This document shows, piece after piece, positions 295 through 14,202 of a stretch of 64,000 nt of DNA. Below the pieces are notes generated by a model that saw only the letters and a program-made list of their open reading frames with translations, did not search any database and was not told the origin of the DNA. The stretch covers positions 1,240,001 to 1,304,000 of the forward strand of contig NZ_CP136920.1 of assembly GCF_033100135.1 (NCBI RefSeq). Direction: 5' to 3'. Position 1 is the first letter of the stretch; the number at the start of each line of letters is the position of its first letter. The stretch is from Rubellicoccus peritrichatus (lineage in GTDB: Bacteria; Verrucomicrobiota; Verrucomicrobiia; Opitutales; Cerasicoccaceae). A program made the position numbers and the translations under genes.

Positions 295-601
295 CTAGGG
301 CGAACGGACATTCAAAAGCGTTTGTTTTAATGGCCTGAAGGGCCATTGCAAAATAGCCCAGGGTGGAATGAGGCACGAATGGAGCCCTGGGTAACAGTCA
401 TCATAAAAAGAAGGAGCCCTGAAGGGGTGAGGCAATGGAAGGAATGCCCTCGTTCGTGCGTCAGTCTTTCAGGCCTTTAACTATCTTTGATTCATGGGTC
501 CTAGGGCTACACTACGTTTCACCCTGGGCTTATTTGCCTCAGCCCTTCGGGCCTCAAAACTGGGAAAGAAATCAACCATCTTGAATGTCCGTTAGCCCTA
601 G
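295..601. repeat. MITE-like palindromic element with 21-bp terminal inverted repeats
   Basis: The left end (295-315, CTAGGGCGAACGGACATTCAA) and the right end (581-601) are inverted copies matching at 20 of 21 positions. Inside are nested short palindromes, for example AATGGCC/GGCCATT at 329-347, and CCCAGGGT near 358 pairing with ACCCTGGG near 522. The element has no coding frame of its own. Its right terminal repeat contains the TAG stop codon of the GH86 gene, so the element abuts the gene exactly. The form resembles non-autonomous palindromic elements scattered in Planctomycetes and Verrucomicrobia genomes, probably mobilised in trans by a transposase not present here. That last point is inference. 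Confidence 0.7.
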
Positions 602-3600
602 TTGACGAACGCGGCGTATTCAGGAATCAGCGCTACAGAAGTGATGTAGCCTCCGTCTTGGTTGATGCGAACGCTAATCGTATTGTCGGTTTTGATAATA
701 CTGGCGGGAACATCAAATTCTGCCCAACCCCAGTAACGCCCATCTTTACGCTCGGGAGTGAGTTCGATTTTGGCGGGCAGTTTTTTCTCATTAACCATGA
801 CAGTCATTGGTTCATCGAAACCGTTTTGACGGGATGCGCAGACTCGTAGCTTTGCCCTCACGATGTTGCCAGGCTCAATTTTGACTTTGAAGCGCGCCGA
901 CTTTCCAGTGGGTTGCAGGATTTTGTTGCCGTAAAAAGTGCGCTCGTTGAGCATCTTCGAAGTATTTGTCGGGCGGTCGAGAGTGATCTCAACAATAGTG
1001 GTTTCCTCAACGGCAACTGGTATTTCCTTCAAGTCTTCGAGAGGTATCGTTTCTTTAACGATACTCGCATTCTCCAGATACATACGATGCTGTTGGATGC
1101 GTTTTGCCTGGTTGCTGCCAAGGATCAGGTCAAGGTCCACTGCGATGCGGTGGGCATTCATGTTATTGATTGCGATATAAACCGTATCACCTGTTGTGAC
1201 TGCATGCGTATGGACTGCAGTATGCTCGGGACTTGTGCGTTTTATTGGCAGGAGCTTGCCTTGGTAGTCTTTCCAGAAATCCAGGTAGTACCCCAGTTTA
1301 TTATTTAAAACGATTTCTCCATTATCATTGACAATAAACAGCCCCTGATCGGTGCCTTTGTTCCAGTGTATGTAGGTGAGTAGGAAGGCACTGGTCAGGT
1401 GTAATTTATCCTGCTGGTTCATGAATCGGATGAGGTAGCCGTTATAGTTTTTAATCTCAATCCACTGCATGCGGTCACTGCCTCCGCCACCGAGTGTGCC
1501 ATACTCCGTGATGAGCCATGGTTTGATATTATCTGTCATGTAGCCATGATTCCACAAGAGGTCGATGACGCCTTCGAGACGTCCGGTCAGGTATCCGCCT
1601 GAGTGCTTTTCGCCACCGTTGAGAATCAGATCCGTGTTCTCGTAAAAGTGGTGCGAGTAAAAATCCATTTTGCCTTTGGTGTCGTCCATGAAATCCATCT
1701 GTTGCTTGCCAACATTGAAGTTTGCATGATCGAGAGCCATCCACGCACTGGTGGGGCCACCAACTTTGACATCAGGATGGTCTTTGCCGATGCGCTCAGC
1801 CATCGCGATGTGGAATTTGGCTAGTTCCTCCCAGCCATCATATCCGGGTTCCCCGTGAAAGGCCCACTCACTGGAGATCGTACTTTCGTTTTTCACTTCC
1901 CACCAGGTCGCAGTTTTACCTAAGAGGTCTTTCTCGGCCTGAATATACTTGGACGCGAGTTCGGCGGCAGCCTCGAAGTCTCTTGGCGTGCCGCGTTCGT
2001 TTGTGTTTTTAGTGTTCTCAAGCCTCATGAAGGTGGGCCAGTTGTCGAAGCAGTCCGCCCATACGAAGTCTTTGCCGAAGAGCTCTTCGCGCCGCTTTAT
2101 TTCACTTTTGTTTTCCTGGATATTCTTGAATATGGAGTAATCAGGGATGCCCGGTTTCCTCTTATTCTCGACGAGTTTTCTTCCTTCGAATCCCCAATGC
2201 TCGAGCCCGTCGAGCTTGCGAATTCCACGACCAGGATAGAAGCCTCGTTTGACAGGGTAGGATATTGTTTTTTCTCGCCCTGTTCCACCGCCGTTTGAAC
2301 CTGCGATTCGCCAGAAGCGGTCGCGCAGGAGATTGTGTTCGCCGTCAATACCTCGGTACTGGGTTGTATCCACTTGAATGGAAACTGGTTCAATCGGCTT
2401 GTCGGCTCCGAGCAAGGTCCACTGACTCATGTCGAAGTGCTGGCTGATGCCTCCGTCACTTTTCAGCTTCATTGATTTTATTTCTCCCGGACCCCGGTAA
2501 TCGATTGCGTAGCCCTCGTAGCCGGATTTGTCATTGGCTTTAAGTCTGTTGGCGTGCCCGGAGAGAATGGTTTCGCCTCCGCTATTTCTCGACCATGGGT
2601 GGAACGCTGCCCGCCCGATCGGTGTGACGAAGGCAATACTTCCCGATGTATTGATGCCATCGCCATGGAGTTCGAGGGTTCCGAATAATTTCCACACGCG
2701 GACAATTTCGGGGGGCAGGGGAATGATGCCTGTACTTTCATCCGCCGGAAAGCTGAGCTCGTAGACTCTGGGGATGTTGTCGTTGACCTGCACATTGATG
2801 ACACAGTCGTACTTCGGGGTCAGCGTTTCCCAGAGAAATTCCAACCTGTCTTTCTCAAGCTGGCCTTCTGCTGGTAGTCCACTTTCGGCTAGCAGGTTCT
2901 GCTCCATCTCGGTTTCATCAAGATCGTCGAGCTCCGACGCCACGGTGGATTGGATTTGCCCCTGGTGTGTACCTGTGACTGTTTGCAAAGTGACAGCTCC
3001 AAAGGTGAAGCCTTCTTCCTGGGGAAGCGAGAAGGCGATTTGGTTACTGGACTGAACGAGAGCTGGATCGACCGGGATTACAATGGTTGCTGCGAGTTCG
3101 GCTTCTTTGCTTTGAATACTGGGGCGCTCCAACACCTTTCCGTTAAGTGCTACCTTGAGTTCATTGATTGCACTTTGTGAGCCAAATGCACCGATGTGTA
3201 ACTCGGCGCGGATGAGCCCGGTTTGCTCTGGCACTTCTATGGTTGTACCCTTTTTCTGTACGATCTGATTGCCAATCGAATTGCCATAGTGAGTGAGGGC
3301 TTTTTGTTCGCCACTGATTGCAGGCAAAGCCTCGAGTGGTTCGGAAAAGATAACAACTGCTTCGCCTGCTTCGATTGTAACACCTTCTTGAACATTTGCG
3401 ACTTGGGAATCGATCGAAGCTGCTTCTACATCGTCGAGTAACAGGCGCCGTACGGTGAGGGACTGCCCGAAGTCCGGATTGAAAATGAGCGTTTTGGGCT
3501 CAGCAGATTGATTTTCTGCGATGACAACTACCTGAGAGTCATCGCGGAAGGCACGCACTTGGATTCGAGTATCGGACGATTCTACATTCAGCCGCTGTCC

Positions 3601-4431
3601 GTTCACTCCTTTGAAGAATTCATAGAACCAAAGGGCTGGGGTAGGTATCCACTCGCCACTGCTCGATACCATGAAGAGTGCATTCTCCAGGACGTTTCCG
3701 TCTGCGGGGATTTTGGTTTGCAGTTTGATCGGTGGGATAGCGTTATCAAAAATATGTGGATACTCCATCAATTGAATCGCATTTGAAACCTTCTGATTGA
3801 ACCGTTGAATGTCATCGTCTTCGGTAGAATCTGGTGCTATTCGATTGAGCTGTATCTCTTTGGAATATTGGGCGATCGCAGCATTCTGTAAGAGATTGAG
3901 CAGGGTTTCAAAGGTGTGAGTTGCGCCTTGGTCGTCCAGTGTCAGCAGGTCAATTGGAACACTATAAGCATCGTTTGTGTTTATGGTTGGAGCAATCTCC
4001 TGCAGCACTCGGAATAGTGACCGATAGTCGCCTTGAAAGTAGCTGGCGAGAGCTGGGATCGCCTGATCTTGCGTTCTGCTTTGATTGACCTGTATTTCGA
4101 GGTCATTCGTCAAGTAGGCTCTCAAGTGAGCCGGGATATTCGTGGCGCTTGAGCTATCGATTGAAAAATAATGCGACCGCTGGAGCTCGGTTTGGCCCTG
4201 GATGCTCAGGGTGGTAGTTGGATCAAGTGTTACGTTGACCACTTCATATTTCGGTGTGATTGGTGGTGTGACTTGGGTTTCCGCTTCTACTGGGGCTTTA
4301 GCCTCGACCTTAGGTGCTTCTGGCTCCTCATCCGGCTTGCTGCACGAGGCGAGGAAGACGGCGCTGATAAGGCATACTGGCTGAACAAACGCGACAAAGT
4401 AAGCTTTGGGGATATTGAAGGATTTAAACAT
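598..4431 (-). CDS. GH86-like beta-agarase/porphyranase lipoprotein with an internal degenerate module duplication
   Basis: This predicted exported lipoprotein of 1277 residues has a signal peptide ending in the lipobox LASC (Cys30) and a Pro/Glu-rich linker to about residue 60. The C-terminal half (about 520-1277) looks like a clan GH-A glycosidase of family GH86, which cleaves agarose or porphyran of red algae. WWEVKNES carries the presumed acid/base Glu849 and ITEYG the presumed nucleophile Glu976, a spacing of 127 residues. The N-terminal half (about 80-490) repeats the same plan without either glutamate. ALFMVSSSGEW at 251 parallels GLFIVNDNGE at 1030, and both are followed by a beta-sandwich segment and a terminal carbohydrate-binding-like segment beginning HYGN/FYGN. 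No other polysaccharide-utilisation genes are adjacent. The exact substrate is not readable from sequence. Confidence 0.75.
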   Translation of the reverse strand: MFKSFNIPKAYFVAFVQPVCLISAVFLASCSKPDEEPEAPKVEAKAPVEAETQVTPPITPKYEVVNVTLDPTTTLSIQGQTELQRSHYFSIDSSSATNIPAHLRAYLTNDLEIQVNQSRTQDQAIPALASYFQGDYRSLFRVLQEIAPTINTNDAYSVPIDLLTLDDQGATHTFETLLNLLQNAAIAQYSKEIQLNRIAPDSTEDDDIQRFNQKVSNAIQLMEYPHIFDNAIPPIKLQTKIPADGNVLENALFMVSSSGEWIPTPALWFYEFFKGVNGQRLNVESSDTRIQVRAFRDDSQVVVIAENQSAEPKTLIFNPDFGQSLTVRRLLLDDVEAASIDSQVANVQEGVTIEAGEAVVIFSEPLEALPAISGEQKALTHYGNSIGNQIVQKKGTTIEVPEQTGLIRAELHIGAFGSQSAINELKVALNGKVLERPSIQSKEAELAATIVIPVDPALVQSSNQIAFSLPQEEGFTFGAVTLQTVTGTHQGQIQSTVASELDDLDETEMEQNLLAESGLPAEGQLEKDRLEFLWETLTPKYDCVINVQVNDNIPRVYELSFPADESTGIIPLPPEIVRVWKLFGTLELHGDGINTSGSIAFVTPIGRAAFHPWSRNSGGETILSGHANRLKANDKSGYEGYAIDYRGPGEIKSMKLKSDGGISQHFDMSQWTLLGADKPIEPVSIQVDTTQYRGIDGEHNLLRDRFWRIAGSNGGGTGREKTISYPVKRGFYPGRGIRKLDGLEHWGFEGRKLVENKRKPGIPDYSIFKNIQENKSEIKRREELFGKDFVWADCFDNWPTFMRLENTKNTNERGTPRDFEAAAELASKYIQAEKDLLGKTATWWEVKNESTISSEWAFHGEPGYDGWEELAKFHIAMAERIGKDHPDVKVGGPTSAWMALDHANFNVGKQQMDFMDDTKGKMDFYSHHFYENTDLILNGGEKHSGGYLTGRLEGVIDLLWNHGYMTDNIKPWLITEYGTLGGGGSDRMQWIEIKNYNGYLIRFMNQQDKLHLTSAFLLTYIHWNKGTDQGLFIVNDNGEIVLNNKLGYYLDFWKDYQGKLLPIKRTSPEHTAVHTHAVTTGDTVYIAINNMNAHRIAVDLDLILGSNQAKRIQQHRMYLENASIVKETIPLEDLKEIPVAVEETTIVEITLDRPTNTSKMLNERTFYGNKILQPTGKSARFKVKIEPGNIVRAKLRVCASRQNGFDEPMTVMVNEKKLPAKIELTPERKDGRYWGWAEFDVPASIIKTDNTISVRINQDGGYITSVALIPEYAAFVN

Positions 4432-8999: not shown

Positions 9000-10040
9000 C
9001 TACTTTTGCTTTCGAACAGTTGTACCGCTCATCCAGGTGCTGCCGATGAGCATTGAGCGGGGAAACTCAGGAGCGCCGGATTCGTCGCGGTGGATCATGC
9101 CTTCGAGCATTTCGACTGCGGCTTCTCCGGTGACGTCATTGTGCTGATTCATGCCGGCCCATTTTGGTTCGGATGAACGCCATTCCAGCTGGACCAGGCC
9201 GATGTCTTTGGGCGCATGTATTTTCGCTTCTTTCAGCCATTTATGCACCGTATTATATAGAGTGAAGACAACATCAGGTCGATAGTTCTCGTACCAGTTC
9301 CAGAAGTGTCGGCGCTCTTTTTCTGCAACTTTGAAATCAAGCATTGGGATGGGGCTCGACGTCATTTGCGCAGCCTCTCTTCCGGCTTGGAATCCGGCTG
9401 AGAAGCGGCGTTCAACCAGACGGTCAATTCCCGCGTCGATGATCATGCCTGGGCGTTTGTAGCCGAGAGCTGCAACTTGGGCAACGGCTTCGTTGACCAG
9501 CATATGGTGGTCGGCACAGACAAACGATAGCGCAGGATTACGAGTTCGAACTCCAGTTACAATGCAGGGAAAGGCATCGATGAGTGGCTGGAAATGACTC
9601 GGTAGTTTGTTCTCCTTCATCAGGCCGACGATGAGTAATCCGCGGATGCTGCGGCTCTTGAGAATTCGCAGGAATGACTTTCCGCGTAGCTCAGGATCAT
9701 GGAGCCAGAATGAGTCAATGGCATAACCCAGTGTCGATGCAGTCCGGCGCACCCCATCAACGTAAACCGGAATGGTCGGGTGATTGGTGAAGGCCTTTGG
9801 ATCGGCGTTGGCATTGATCAACCCGAGTACCGCCTGGAAACCGGGTTGACGTGTTCGCCGCATGCGAACCATCAATTCGCTGACCACAGCGTTACGCTGA
9901 TAGCCCAGCTTTTCCGCCATGCGTTGAATGCGCTTTTGAGTTTTGTCCGGTATTTGCGGATCCTTGCGCAAGGCCAGTGACACGGTGTTTTTGGAAACAC
10001 CGGCGGCCTTTGCCACATCTGCCATACTTGGATTTTTCAC
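9000..10040 (-). CDS. LacI-family transcriptional regulator, likely of L-arabinose catabolism
   Basis: The 346-residue protein has an N-terminal LacI helix-turn-helix (MADVAKAAGVSKNTVSLALRKDPQIPDKTQKRI, about residues 6-38) and hinge (MAEKLGYQRN), followed by a periplasmic-binding-protein-like effector domain. The GTG at 10040 is used; an ATG five codons later (10025) is a fair alternative. It is divergent from araB with about 64 bp between them, so control of araBAD is inferred. The effector (L-arabinose or an intermediate) is not readable. Confidence 0.8.
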   Translation of the reverse strand: MKNPSMADVAKAAGVSKNTVSLALRKDPQIPDKTQKRIQRMAEKLGYQRNAVVSELMVRMRRTRQPGFQAVLGLINANADPKAFTNHPTIPVYVDGVRRTASTLGYAIDSFWLHDPELRGKSFLRILKSRSIRGLLIVGLMKENKLPSHFQPLIDAFPCIVTGVRTRNPALSFVCADHHMLVNEAVAQVAALGYKRPGMIIDAGIDRLVERRFSAGFQAGREAAQMTSSPIPMLDFKVAEKERRHFWNWYENYRPDVVFTLYNTVHKWLKEAKIHAPKDIGLVQLEWRSSEPKWAGMNQHNDVTGEAAVEMLEGMIHRDESGAPEFPRSMLIGSTWMSGTTVRKQK

Positions 10041-10054
10041 AGTTACATTACTGT
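10039..10054. promoter_or_regulatory. Candidate operator palindrome in the lacI-araB intergenic region
   Basis: ACAGT-TACATT-ACTGT is a perfect 5-bp inverted repeat around a 6-bp centre. It extends imperfectly on both sides and overlaps the GTG start of the LacI-type gene. The position between the divergent regulator and araB fits an auto-regulatory operator. Many LacI operators are longer with a central CG, so this is tentative. Confidence 0.35.
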
Positions 10055-10104
10055 CAAGTAAATGAAGCCTTTTCGAGTCTTAAAATTTGTATCAGTCTCA
10101 GGGC

Positions 10105-11778
10105 ATGAGTGTTACCCTAGGACTTGATTTTGGCACAAACTCCGTCCGCGCGCTACTCGTTCGTTGTAGTGACGGGACTGAACTCGGCACTTCGGTTGCC
10201 AATTATCCCAGCGGCAAGGAAGGCGTCCTTCTGGACGGCAAAGATGTGCATCTGGCGCGTCAACGTCCCAGTGATCACTTGCTTTCGATGGAGCAGTGCA
10301 TTACCGGTGCTTTGAAAGAAGCTTCCGAAAAGCACGCGGATTTTTCGCCGGCAGATGTCGTCGGGATTGGTGTTGATGCGACTGGGTCGAGTCCCTTGCC
10401 GGTTGACTCCAGCAATGTCGCGCTCGGGATGAAGCCGGAGTTTACTGACAACCTTTCGGCACAGTGCTGGCTATGGAAAGACCATACGAGCCATGCCGAA
10501 GCGGCTGCCATTACCGAGACCGCTCGTAAGCATCGCCCTCAGTATGTCGCAAAATGCGGTAACACATATTCTTCCGAATGGTTTTGGAGCAAAATCTGGC
10601 GTTGCTTAAAGGACGACCCTGCGGTTTTTTCCGCCGCACATAGTTGGGTTGAATTCGCGGACTGGATTCCGTCTCAGCTCGCTGGCATTAACGACCCGGG
10701 CGCCATTCAGCGTGGCGTTTGCATGGCCGGTCACAAGGCACTTTATGCCGATGATTGGGGCGGTTTGCCGGACAAGGAATTTCTAACCATGCTCGATCCG
10801 AAGCTGGCCGACTTGCGGGATCGCCTCTACGACAAAGCGCATGATGCCTCAACCGTTGCCGGTGAGCTCTCTCCTGAGTGGGCCGGGAAAACCGGTTTGG
10901 GTGCGGGCATTCCGATTGCGATTGGGGAGATGGATGTGCATTACGGCGCCATCGGTTGCGGTGTTTCGGAGGGGACACTTGTAAAGGTCATTGGCACGTC
11001 GACTTGTGATTGCGGTGTGGTTTCCGCCGATAAGGAAGTTGCCGACATTCCTGGTATTTGCGGTATCGTGAAAGGAGCGATCCTGCCTGGCTTTTACGGC
11101 ATCGAGGCCGGGCAGTCGGCCTGTGGCGACCTTTTCAAATGGTGGGTCGAGGGCGTTTGCGAAGGCAGCCCTGATCTTCATGCAAAACTGACGGCTGAAG
11201 TGGAAAACCTTCTCCCAGGCGAAAGCGGTTTACTCGCCCTGGATTGGAATAACGGCAACCGGACAGTGCTTGTCGATCAACGTCTGACCGGTCTCCTGCT
11301 GGGGCAGACTTTACATACAAGCCAGGCTGAAATTTACCGTTCATTGATCGAGGCAACGGCTTTTGGAGCGCGTATGATTATTGAGCGTGTGGAGGCCTAC
11401 GGTGTGCCGATTCAACGCATAGTTTGTGCGGGCGGCATTGCAGAGAAGAACGGCATGCTGATGCAAATCTATGCGGATGTCACCGGCCGCGAAATGCTTG
11501 TTTCAGGCTCCAGTCAGGCCTGTGCACTAGGTGCGGCTGTTGGCGCATCCGTCATTGCCGGTATTCATCCGGATTTCAAAACCGCACAGGAGGCCATGAC
11601 CACAGTTAAGGACATTGTTTATCAGCCTGACCTGGAAAATCACAAAATATACAATCAACTCTTTGAACTCTACCAGCAGGTTCATGACGCCTTTGGCGGT
11701 GTCAATCAAAGCGCTGACCTCGGTGCAGTGATGAAGGACCTGCTGAATCTTAAAGAAAGACAGACACAGAACAGCTAA
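10105..11778 (+). CDS. araB: L-ribulokinase (AraB)
   Basis: The 557-residue FGGY-family kinase phosphorylates L-ribulose to L-ribulose 5-phosphate. It begins MSVTLGLDFGTNSVRALLV, with the phosphate-binding GLDFGTNS motif at residues 5-12. It also contains the ribulokinase-specific GVGVDATGSSPLP-like stretch (GIGVDATGSSPLP) and the C-terminal CAGGIAEKNGMLMQIYADV. The ATG at 10105 is preferred over a TTG six codons upstream because it places the nucleotide-binding strand at the usual distance. The length agrees with the family. It is the first gene of araB-araA-araD. Confidence 0.95.
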   Translation: MSVTLGLDFGTNSVRALLVRCSDGTELGTSVANYPSGKEGVLLDGKDVHLARQRPSDHLLSMEQCITGALKEASEKHADFSPADVVGIGVDATGSSPLPVDSSNVALGMKPEFTDNLSAQCWLWKDHTSHAEAAAITETARKHRPQYVAKCGNTYSSEWFWSKIWRCLKDDPAVFSAAHSWVEFADWIPSQLAGINDPGAIQRGVCMAGHKALYADDWGGLPDKEFLTMLDPKLADLRDRLYDKAHDASTVAGELSPEWAGKTGLGAGIPIAIGEMDVHYGAIGCGVSEGTLVKVIGTSTCDCGVVSADKEVADIPGICGIVKGAILPGFYGIEAGQSACGDLFKWWVEGVCEGSPDLHAKLTAEVENLLPGESGLLALDWNNGNRTVLVDQRLTGLLLGQTLHTSQAEIYRSLIEATAFGARMIIERVEAYGVPIQRIVCAGGIAEKNGMLMQIYADVTGREMLVSGSSQACALGAAVGASVIAGIHPDFKTAQEAMTTVKDIVYQPDLENHKIYNQLFELYQQVHDAFGGVNQSADLGAVMKDLLNLKERQTQNS

Positions 11779-11797
11779 CTAGAATTTACCTGTATTT

Positions 11798-11922
11798 AAC
11801 CGCAGAGTGCGCAAAGACTGCAAAATTTTTTTAATAAACAAATTATAACCATAAACCTATTAATGACCTATCGCACTACGTTTAGGAAATTTCTTAGCGA
11901 TCTCTGCGTTCTTTGCGGTTTT
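11798..11922. repeat. Intergenic inverted repeat of the ACCGCAGAG/CTCTGCGGT family, araB-araA
   Basis: The left arm at 11798-11820 (AACCGCAGAGTGCGCAAAG) pairs imperfectly with the right arm at 11897-11922 (CTCTGCGTTCTTTGCGGTT). The loop is AT-rich and contains no gene. Related arms occur at about 14572, 24112, 44193 and 63192. Here it separates araB from araA and could slow RNA decay or attenuate transcription. Confidence 0.6.
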
Positions 11923-11995
11923 AACTAACTGGATAAATAAAATTCAAGCAATTCCATAAGTTCCACCTTAACCATTTGTAACAACATTAAATTCC

Positions 11996-13501
11996 ATGAG
12001 TATTGATATTTCACAAAACGAAGTCTGGTTTATCACTGGTAGCCAGCACCTTTATGGGCCGGAAGCACTCAAGCAGGTCGACATTGATTCTGCGCAGATC
12101 GCGAAAGCACTTGATGCGGATGCATCCATTCCGGTCAAGGTGGTCTTCAAGCCGGTCGTCACGACACCGGATGAAATCCGTAACATCTGCATTGAGGCCA
12201 ACACGAATGATCGATGCGTTGGCCTTGTCTGCTGGATGCATACCTTTTCACCAGCAAAAATGTGGATCGGCGGGTTGAGTGTTCTTAGCAAACCGTTTTG
12301 CCACCTTCACACGCAGTTCAATCGTGATATCCCCTGGGCGGATATGGATATGGATTTCATGAACTTGAATCAGTCCGCTCATGGCGGCCGTGAGTTCGGG
12401 TTTATCTGCACGCGTATGCGTCTGGAGCGTAAGGTTATCGTTGGTCACTGGGAAGAGTCCGATGTGCGTCGCAGTCTTGGTGTCTGGTGTCGCGCCGCTT
12501 CGGCCAGGGCAGAAATGCAACAGCTGAAAGTCGTGCGTTTTGGAGATAACATGCGCTATGTTGCTGTGACCGAAGGTGATAAAGTTGAAGCTGAGAAAGT
12601 TTTTGGCATGAGTGTCAACACACATGGAGTTGGCGATCTGGTTGCTGTCATCAAGGACGTTTCAGATGCTGATGTCGCTGAACTCTGTGCCGAGTATGAG
12701 GCGACTTATGCGGTCACGGCTGAATTGCGAAAAGGCGGTGATCGTCATGCTTCCCTGACTGAAGCTGCCCGGATTGAGCTCGGCTTGCGCGCCTTCCTGA
12801 GTGATGGTGGATATGGTGCCTTTACCGATACTTTTGAGGACTTGCATGGTCTGCCACAACTGCCGGGGATTGCCGCTCAACGTCTCATGGCGGATGGTTA
12901 TGGCTTCGGTGCTGAAGGTGACTGGAAACACGCCGCTCTTGTTCGTGTGATGAAGGTCATGGCTTTCGGATTGTCTGGTGGCACATCCTTCATGGAAGAT
13001 TACACTTATCATTTTAATCCAGCTGGAGCGCGTTGCCTTGGAGCGCATATGCTTGAGATTTGTCCTTCGATTGCTGCTGCAAAACCGAGCTGTGAAGTGC
13101 ATCCGCTCGGTATCGGCGGGAAGGAAGATCCGGTTCGCCTTGTCTTTGATGGTGCAACGGGCCCGGCGATCAATGCATCGCTTGTTGATTTGGGGAATCG
13201 CTTCCGCATCCTGGTTAATGAGGTTGAAGCGGTCGAGCCCGAGCAACCTCTGCCCAAGCTGCCTGTCGCAAGAACACTTTGGGATGCAAAGCCTGACCTT
13301 CGGACTGCGGCTGCCGCCTGGATTCTGGCTGGTGGTGCGCACCACACTGGTTATAGTTTGAGTGTAACGACCGAGTTTATCGAAGACTTTGCCGAAATGA
13401 CTGGCGTCGAGCTGGTCGTTATCGACAAGGACACGAACTTGCGTTCATTCAAAAACGAACTTCGAATGGCGGAGAGCCATTACGGGATTAAAGGGATTTA
13501 A
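11996..13501 (+). CDS. araA: L-arabinose isomerase (AraA)
   Basis: The 501-residue enzyme interconverts L-arabinose and L-ribulose. It contains [15 protein letters not shown] (residues 11-25), [15 protein letters not shown] (about 78-92), [11 protein letters not shown], and MEDYTYHF plus the C-terminal GGAHHTGYS, all AraA hallmarks including metal ligands in the central Glu and His segments. Its length is standard. The ATG at 11996 follows a 217-bp intergenic repeat; araD follows 2 bp after the stop. Confidence 0.96.
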
Positions 13502-13503
13502 AA

Positions 13504-14202
13504 ATGAACTACCAATCCATTCGCGAAGCCTGCTGTGAAGCCAATCGAAAACTTCCGGCTACTGGCCTGGTTGATCTTACCTTTGGTAATGTCAGTGTGC
13601 TGGATCCGGATAGCGGTGTCTTTGCGATAAAGCCAAGTGGTGTTGATTATGATGCATTGACTCCTGATTCGATGGTCCTGGTTGATCTTAATGGGGAGGT
13701 TGTTGAGGGTGAGTTGAAACCGTCATCGGATACGCCAACGCACCAGCGATTACTTCAAGCCTTTGGCGATGCTGGTGTGACTTCAGTTGTGCATACACAT
13801 TCTCGAAATGCCGTCGCTTTTGCACAGGCTGGCCGTGAGATTCCGTGTTTTGGGACGACGCATGCGGATTATTTTTTTGGAGCAGTTCCGATCACTCGCG
13901 AGCTTACCGCAGACGAAATCCAAGGTGAATATGAGTGGGCAACGGGTGAGGCCATCGTCGAGCGCTTTGCTGATTTGAAGCCACTCGATTTTCCTGCTGT
14001 TCTGGTTAAAAGCCATGGGCCTTTTGCCTGGGGAAAGACTGCGGATAAAGCAGTCGAGCATGCGCTCGCTCTGGAGATTATTGCTGATATGGCTTTGAAG
14101 ACACTGGCTGCCAACCCGTCAGCAGAACCAATCCCGGATGTATTGTTGAAAAAGCATTTCCTGAGAAAGCATGGTTCTTCAGCATATTACGGACAGGGAT
14201 AA
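13504..14202 (+). CDS. araD: L-ribulose-5-phosphate 4-epimerase (AraD)
   Basis: The 232-residue class II aldolase-fold enzyme converts L-ribulose 5-phosphate to D-xylulose 5-phosphate. It shows the GNVSVLD and FAIKPSGVDYD motifs, the zinc-binding VVHTHSRNAVAFAQAG (His97, His99) and FGTTHADYF. The start is 2 bp after araA, so the two are surely co-transcribed. With araB and araA it completes the route to the pentose phosphate pathway; no arabinose transporter is in the window. Confidence 0.95.
   Translation: MNYQSIREACCEANRKLPATGLVDLTFGNVSVLDPDSGVFAIKPSGVDYDALTPDSMVLVDLNGEVVEGELKPSSDTPTHQRLLQAFGDAGVTSVVHTHSRNAVAFAQAGREIPCFGTTHADYFFGAVPITRELTADEIQGEYEWATGEAIVERFADLKPLDFPAVLVKSHGPFAWGKTADKAVEHALALEIIADMALKTLAANPSAEPIPDVLLKKHFLRKHGSSAYYGQG

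Follow-up and report, generated by a model that had tools for sequence, protein, structure and literature searches.

A fused open reading frame with two GH86-derived halves

We examined an open reading frame (ORF) in a 64,000-nucleotide stretch of the Rubellicoccus peritrichatus genome (contig NZ_CP136920.1, positions 1,240,001 to 1,304,000), referred to here as the window. The ORF joins the remains of one glycoside hydrolase family 86 (GH86) protein to a second, complete one. A first-pass annotation, made from the sequence alone, had described it as a degenerate, non-catalytic GH86-like copy fused to an intact copy, and the coordinates and reading frame given there proved exact (Table 1). The GH86-derived N-terminal half (the N half) covers residues ~61-490 and the complete enzyme (the C half) residues ~505-1277. 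The fusion is real and well delimited; an assembly error is not suggested, since the gene lies on one contig in one open frame, which is likewise open in the single-contig genome.

The C half matches four distinct solved GH86 sequences with E-values (E) of 9e-27 to 6e-17, and when scanned alone it scores 44.0 bits with PF18206 (cut-off 27) and 40.3 bits with PF18040 (cut-off 26.2). Both catalytic glutamates are present, and alignment confirmed the positions first proposed for them, E849 and E976. We take E849 to be the acid/base, in keeping with the enzyme clan of GH86. E976 aligns with the glutamate that differs between wild-type BuGH86 and its mutant E322Q (5ta0), described as an inactive nucleophile mutant (PMC5849685). 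The AlphaFold2 model of the C half has a predicted local distance difference test score (pLDDT) of 89 and a predicted template modelling score (pTM) of 0.90, and it matches BpGH86A with Z 41.2 and a root-mean-square deviation (rmsd) of 2.8 Å over 530 aligned residues.

Ahead of this barrel lies an accessory domain of about 160 residues, which is hardly covered among the 50 solved-structure matches listed (the earliest begins at residue 665) and which gave no Pfam match in domain scans of the whole protein and of the halves. The domain is specific to one of two GH86 subfamilies, for which we use our own labels "A-type" and "C-type"; it belongs to the C-type and is common to many relatives of the C half. 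These relatives are mostly free-standing proteins of about 760-900 residues, found in Verrucomicrobiota, Lentisphaera, Kiritimatiellales, Planctomycetes, Spirochaetes and Epulopiscium. They begin near the fusion junction: similarity to them sets in at about residue 516, and their signal peptide has no counterpart in the fusion. From its sequence, the C half would be expected to act on agarose or porphyran.

The N half matches the same four solved sequences with E 7.5e-7 to 1.1e-4, and the two halves align significantly with each other. BLASTP gives E 3e-4 over 249 residues (22% identity); the Smith-Waterman score is 82 versus a shuffle mean of 37 (standard deviation 4), with none of 300 shuffles scoring as high; and comparison of the N half with a C-type alignment profile gives a probability of 99.3 and E 7e-21 over 306 columns. 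The parallel motifs recorded in the first-pass annotation fall where they were placed, ALFMVSSSGEW (251-261) opposite GLFIVNDNGE (1030-1039) and HYGN (381-384) opposite FYGN (1166-1169). In the N half PF18206 scores 24.8 bits in the half-protein scan and 28 bits in a six-frame search, against a cut-off of 27, and PF18040 (BPA_C) scores 17.1 bits, under its 26.2 cut-off.

The columns of both catalytic glutamates, whose absence from this half had also been claimed, are gaps in the N half, and the nucleophile again stands opposite a gap in the profile alignment; among the other alignment rows the acid/base glutamate is kept in 69 of 70 and the nucleophile in 70 of 70. Residues R62-D463 of L005, an A-type protein, correspond to residues 75-287 of the fused protein, that is, 401 versus 212 positions, a net difference of 189 lost. 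The barrel has been hollowed of much of its interior, including the acid/base segment, but its last part remains and so does its start, TTTLSIQGQTELQRSHYFSI; the first-pass annotation had missed both the retained start and the extent of the inner loss. In pairwise alignments the loss is broken into several gaps, compatible with one or several deletions. The A-type has 187 conserved columns; the N half lacks 57 and keeps 31 of the 137 that fall in the barrel, whereas it lacks 2 and keeps 20 of the 50 in the sandwiches. The AlphaFold2 model of the N half has a pLDDT of 80 (mostly above 80 in the sandwiches, 50-75 in places in the barrel remnant) and a pTM of 0.83, and its best solved match is again BpGH86A (Z 36.8, rmsd 2.8, 414 aligned), although it was built from an alignment of GH86 proteins, which pulls the result toward the GH86 fold. 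Considered as a pseudo-glycosidase, then, the N half has lost its catalytic residues and has retained the sandwiches and about half of the barrel. Judged from its sequence, it is derived from GH86 but is not a working member of the family, and it is incapable of hydrolysis by the GH86 mechanism, having lost barrel residues, the acid/base segment and the nucleophile.

Table 1. Parts of the fused GH86 gene and their positions in the window
Feature	Residues	Window position	Strand	Basis
Whole fused ORF, ATG start	1-1277	598..4431	-	ORF translation
Signal peptide with terminal lipobox LASC and Cys30; putative lipoprotein	1-30	4342..4431	-	own pattern and hydropathy, no trained predictor
Pro/Glu/Ala-rich linker	31-62	4246..4341	-	sequence
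A-type GH86 barrel remnant; start and last part retained, middle and both catalytic Glu absent	63-285	3577..4245	-	alignment, model
N-half beta-sandwich 1, PF18206-like, approximate boundary	286-372	3316..3576	-	domain scan, model
N-half beta-sandwich 2, BPA_C-like, approximate boundary	373-488	2968..3315	-	domain scan, model
Junction	489-516	2884..2967	-	comparison with free-standing C-type enzymes
C-type subfamily N-terminal accessory domain	517-678	2398..2883	-	alignment, structure comparison
Intact GH86 barrel	679-1072	1216..2397	-	matches to solved GH86, model
Glu of N-E motif, within WWEVKNES	849	1885..1887	-	alignment
Nucleophile Glu, within LITEYGT	976	1504..1506	-	alignment to 5ta0
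Porphyranase beta-sandwich domain 1 (PF18206)	1073-1173	913..1215	-	domain scan
BPA_C domain (PF18040) and stop	1174-1277	598..912	-	domain scan

Ancestry of the halves and their export signal

The shared domain order and the significant self-alignment could be explained if the C half had been duplicated internally and the first copy had then decayed. The N half, however, is nearer to A-type enzymes than to its own C half: in one blastp ranking it matches A-type L004 with E 8e-26 over 440 residues, plus E 1e-6 for the barrel start, while its own C half reaches only E 0.003. Two A-type GH86 proteins, L004 and L005, are encoded in the same genome as the fusion. We also built a quick tree of 71 rows and 411 columns (those filled by the N half), in which the N half joins 15 A-type rows with support 98 and an end branch of 2.65, and the C half is placed among 33 C-type rows. 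From 80 aligned rows 69 had been kept, to which the two window halves were added; the rows dropped were the full-length window protein, L024|3, L025|7929, L025|9009, L029, L046, L061, L062, L070 and both L085 frames. The approximately unbiased (AU) test rejected a clade of the two halves (p-AU 0.003), although it rejected only marginally a tree with the N half forced inside the C-type clade (p 0.044), and the long N-half branch makes the tree placement less sure. Because of the quick tree and the long branch, we based the A-type origin additionally on the blastp ranking, on the type of export signal and on the missing C-type accessory domain, of which the alignment shows no trace before the first barrel.

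The export signal is of the A-type kind. A lipoprotein-like signal was found in 9 of the 12 A-type proteins with a usable start, in none of the 32 C-type proteins, and in the fusion itself (LASC, Cys30). L066, L080 and L086 were excluded from the 12 for want of a usable start, whereas L016 was counted despite the same defect. Over all A-type rows the count is 9 of 15, and scanning the first 110 residues gives 10 of 15 A-type and 0 of 32 C-type. These counts come from a looser lipobox pattern and a hydropathy rule devised after the misses of a first, stricter pattern had been seen; the stricter pattern, applied to the first 90 residues, gave 4 of 15 A-type and 2 of 32 C-type and missed AGGC and PAGC. 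The fused protein would presumably be lipidated at Cys30 and displayed at the cell surface.

On these sequence comparisons the halves come from two different GH86 paralogs, of different subfamilies, and are not copies of one another. An internal duplication is highly improbable, and the blastp ranking, the tree, the AU test and the signal type together led us to rule it out. The first-pass description of a dead GH86-like part fused to an intact one therefore stands, but its "copy", in the sense of a duplicated C half, does not.

Fused relatives and genomic surroundings

We found no second GH86 fusion in one ORF in the genome searches, the genome contigs or the viral contigs. The genomes with any match numbered 5 of 54, 2 of 10, 16 of 372, 10 of 387 (N half as query), 9 of 384 and 8 of 29; these sets overlap, and all but the 8 of 29 include the window's own genome. 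In the searches of 372 and 384 genomes scoring was limited to two candidates per genome, such that a weaker second match could escape, although a fused relative should rank first. In the genome contigs, the N-half query returned 33 stretches with no relative among them, and the C-type query 33 loci with no fusion, although truncation at the 5' end precludes a verdict on two of them, L029 and L046. The viral contigs yielded one stretch, which is not a relative. A six-frame search with PF18206 gave 63 matches in 62 open frames, only the window's frame holding two; for four genomes, the window's included, scoring covered no more than 12 candidates, and a decayed copy may lie below the threshold. 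Within the genomes and contigs searched, the fusion is unique.

GH86 proteins joined to other domains did turn up. In Verrucomicrobiales, a C-type GH86 follows an N-terminal sulfatase (L038:6171-10304), precedes C-terminal sulfatase domains (L048:7509-13256) or is joined to an apiosidase-like domain (L034:7422-11396). A sulfatase-modifying-factor domain and a cadherin domain precede an A-type GH86 in L070:1-3855 (minus strand) and also in L066. L119:1474-3834 (minus strand), assigned to the A-type by blast match only, has a weak sulfatase C-terminal match before its GH86 (20.5 bits, cut-off 30.9). On the Epulopiscium contigs L025 (7929-15544) and L027 (7932-12767), two or three C-type GH86 genes stand in a row, one of them split into two frames.

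The genome of the fusion also holds a second candidate dead GH86. L008:907-2760 (G000 contig 1, ~2845286-2847139) encodes a full-length GH86 with an isoleucine at the acid/base position, YSPLSIPFV versus YEPMNEPFV in a close paralog, and with the nucleophile glutamate kept. It is the sole row without the acid/base glutamate among the 70 rows other than the N half, and it lies directly downstream of the intact A-type L005.

Both GH86 types were matched in 7 of 29 genomes of one family, probably the Pontiellaceae, since G561 and L031 (Pontiellaceae) share an identical A-type protein; some of these family rows were typed by match range only and not placed in the tree. In five of the seven (G403, G448, G561, G693 and G944) the A- and C-type genes lie on the same strand within ~7 kb, and in G948 and G961 they are on separate contigs. 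L031 has sulfatase, GH2, GH43 and GH94 genes nearby, and these neighbours, together with the sulfatase fusions in L038 and L048, fit sulfated galactans such as porphyran.

One flank of the fused gene carries ion channel, glycosyltransferase, exosortase and RNase Y genes, and the other carries small proteins, a LysE-type exporter and an arabinose operon, whereas other GH86 genes of the same genome lie near sulfatase, GH43, GH88 and fucosidase genes. In the arabinose operon (window 9000-14202), the gene of a LacI-type regulator faces those of an FGGY-family kinase, an L-arabinose isomerase and a protein of the class II aldolase type. A promoter scan was uninformative (5 sites versus 3.5 expected).

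A possible role for the dead half

Any stop codon in the N half would also prevent synthesis of the C half, and openness of the frame therefore shows nothing by itself. For this reason we compared the substitutions of the N half with those in simulated rows that started from the A-type consensus and drifted neutrally until their identity was close to that observed, realigning every simulated row (n=100). For residues 262-490, the hydropathy correlation was 0.44 versus 0.21 (standard deviation 0.07) simulated, the fraction of residues seen in the family 0.48 versus 0.27, and the conserved-minus-variable identity 0.28 versus 0.06, and none of the 100 simulations reached the observed value in any of these three; conservative substitutions were at 0.27 versus 0.21, with 2 of 100 as high. 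In an earlier test 300 simulations were scored on the original alignment, to the advantage of the observed row; there 14, 6, 0 and 0 simulations were as high for the half-barrel and 12, 0, 0 and 1 for the sandwiches. The fold of the N half has been under constraint for much of its branch, although part of that constraint may predate the loss of activity.

On balance, and with modest confidence, we favour a gene fusion of two GH86 paralogs in which the dead one serves as a lipid anchor and fold-retaining spacer and perhaps binds galactan. The upstream partner would have been an A-type GH86, probably a lipoprotein, whose (beta/alpha)8 barrel shrank by ~190 residues (net), with loss of the acid/base segment, and which lost the nucleophile as well; the downstream partner would have been a complete C-type GH86 stripped of its own signal peptide. 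The dead half would carry the live half out of the cytoplasm and anchor it to lipid, while the half-barrel remnant, the two beta-sandwiches and the linkers would form a spacer keeping the live half off the membrane; the dead half may also touch galactan. In the simplest working model, a C-type enzyme that had been secreted would have become lipid-anchored through the fusion.

Alternatively, the dead half might be a relic useful only for its signal peptide, persisting because in-frame deletions are rare and the frame must stay open. We consider this unlikely, if a serious contender. It would suit the very long branch, the large deletion, the occurrence in one genome only, the position among unrelated neighbours and the third-position G+C, which is lower along the N half (0.52, 0.48) than along the C half (0.63, 0.60, 0.54). 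A relic is not expected, however, to have residues and substitutions that follow family constraints beyond drift in all four measures, with the caveat that constraint before the loss could have left part of that trace.

The first-pass annotation had suggested a binding or positioning unit for agar-type polysaccharides. Positioning gains support from the lipoprotein-like signal and the fold-like constraint of the N half, and binding is not contradicted. A stronger version makes the dead half a genuine galactan-binding module, its barrel remnant and two sandwiches holding agar or porphyran chains beside the active site of the C half; this seems to us unlikely. The retention of the fold against drift would agree with it, as would a match to PF03170 (BcsB) at residues 424-471 (window 3019-3162), inside the second sandwich, but this match is short and barely above its cut-off (21.5 versus 21 bits). 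The BcsB family includes sugar-binding jelly-roll domains. Glycosidases that have lost catalysis and kept binding are also known (PMC7828330). Much of the sugar-holding barrel is deleted, however, the conserved A-type columns having been lost there far more than in the sandwiches, and the ligand contacts of GH86 sit in active-site subsites around the catalytic machinery, as described in PMC5849685. That a partly deleted GH86, a half-barrel with two sandwiches, acts as a lipid-anchored galactan-holding module, both scaffold and binding partner for a live member of the other subfamily, is in our opinion quite doubtful.

A number of observations weigh against the anchor-and-spacer reading. The searches for a second fused GH86 came back empty, and a single occurrence yields no dN/dS (nonsynonymous to synonymous substitution ratio) and does not establish that the fusion has age or a benefit. 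The differing third-position G+C of the halves, the necessarily open frame, the GH86 bias of the N-half model, the long branch and the marginal AU result all count on the same side, as do neighbours with no visible galactan role. The C-type gene precedes the A-type gene in all five linked genomes, the opposite of the order in the fusion, which thus was not made by simple read-through of that arrangement.

The solved enzymes BpGH86A (4aw7), BuGH86 (5ta0/5ta1/5ta5) and Aga86A_Wa (8h97), a beta-porphyranase and agarases, are all GH86. The C half shares with them the barrel, two Ig-like domains and both catalytic glutamates, and the N half the two sandwiches and part of the barrel, but their chains align as one GH86 unit, whereas the fusion has a dead second unit and the accessory domain in front. 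The closest relatives of the N half are A-type proteins, L004 and L005 of the same genome and others of the order and phylum; unlike the N half, all 15 A-type rows in the tree keep both glutamates, and most are free-standing proteins of ~650-720 residues. C-type proteins such as L051, L023, L024, L010 and L053 have the accessory domain, barrel and sandwiches of the C half, with up to 38% identity, but they have their own N-terminus without a lipobox and no upstream GH86 unit, a few being fused to sulfatases or to the apiosidase-like domain.

Other families are known to pair a dead glycosidase unit with a live one (PMC7828330). Klotho, with its GH1-like repeats, and PgaB, with an active and an inactive esterase domain, likewise carry a dead carbohydrate-enzyme unit and a sister unit in one chain (PMC7828330); the dead units of these two are described as binding, whereas about half of the N-half barrel in the fusion is deleted. 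In the literature listings searched, no double GH86 or dead GH86 unit was reported. The GH86 fold and its catalytic glutamates were already known, and a dead and a live GH86 in one chain is new within the scope searched.

The analysis also brings out two GH86 subfamilies that differ in export signal and whose genes lie close together in several genomes of a single family. Provided that the fused protein is made and used, it would show a polysaccharide degrader turning a failing enzyme into a carrier for another, and it would offer a clean test of the role of the non-catalytic GH86 sandwiches, which here stand apart from any functional barrel.

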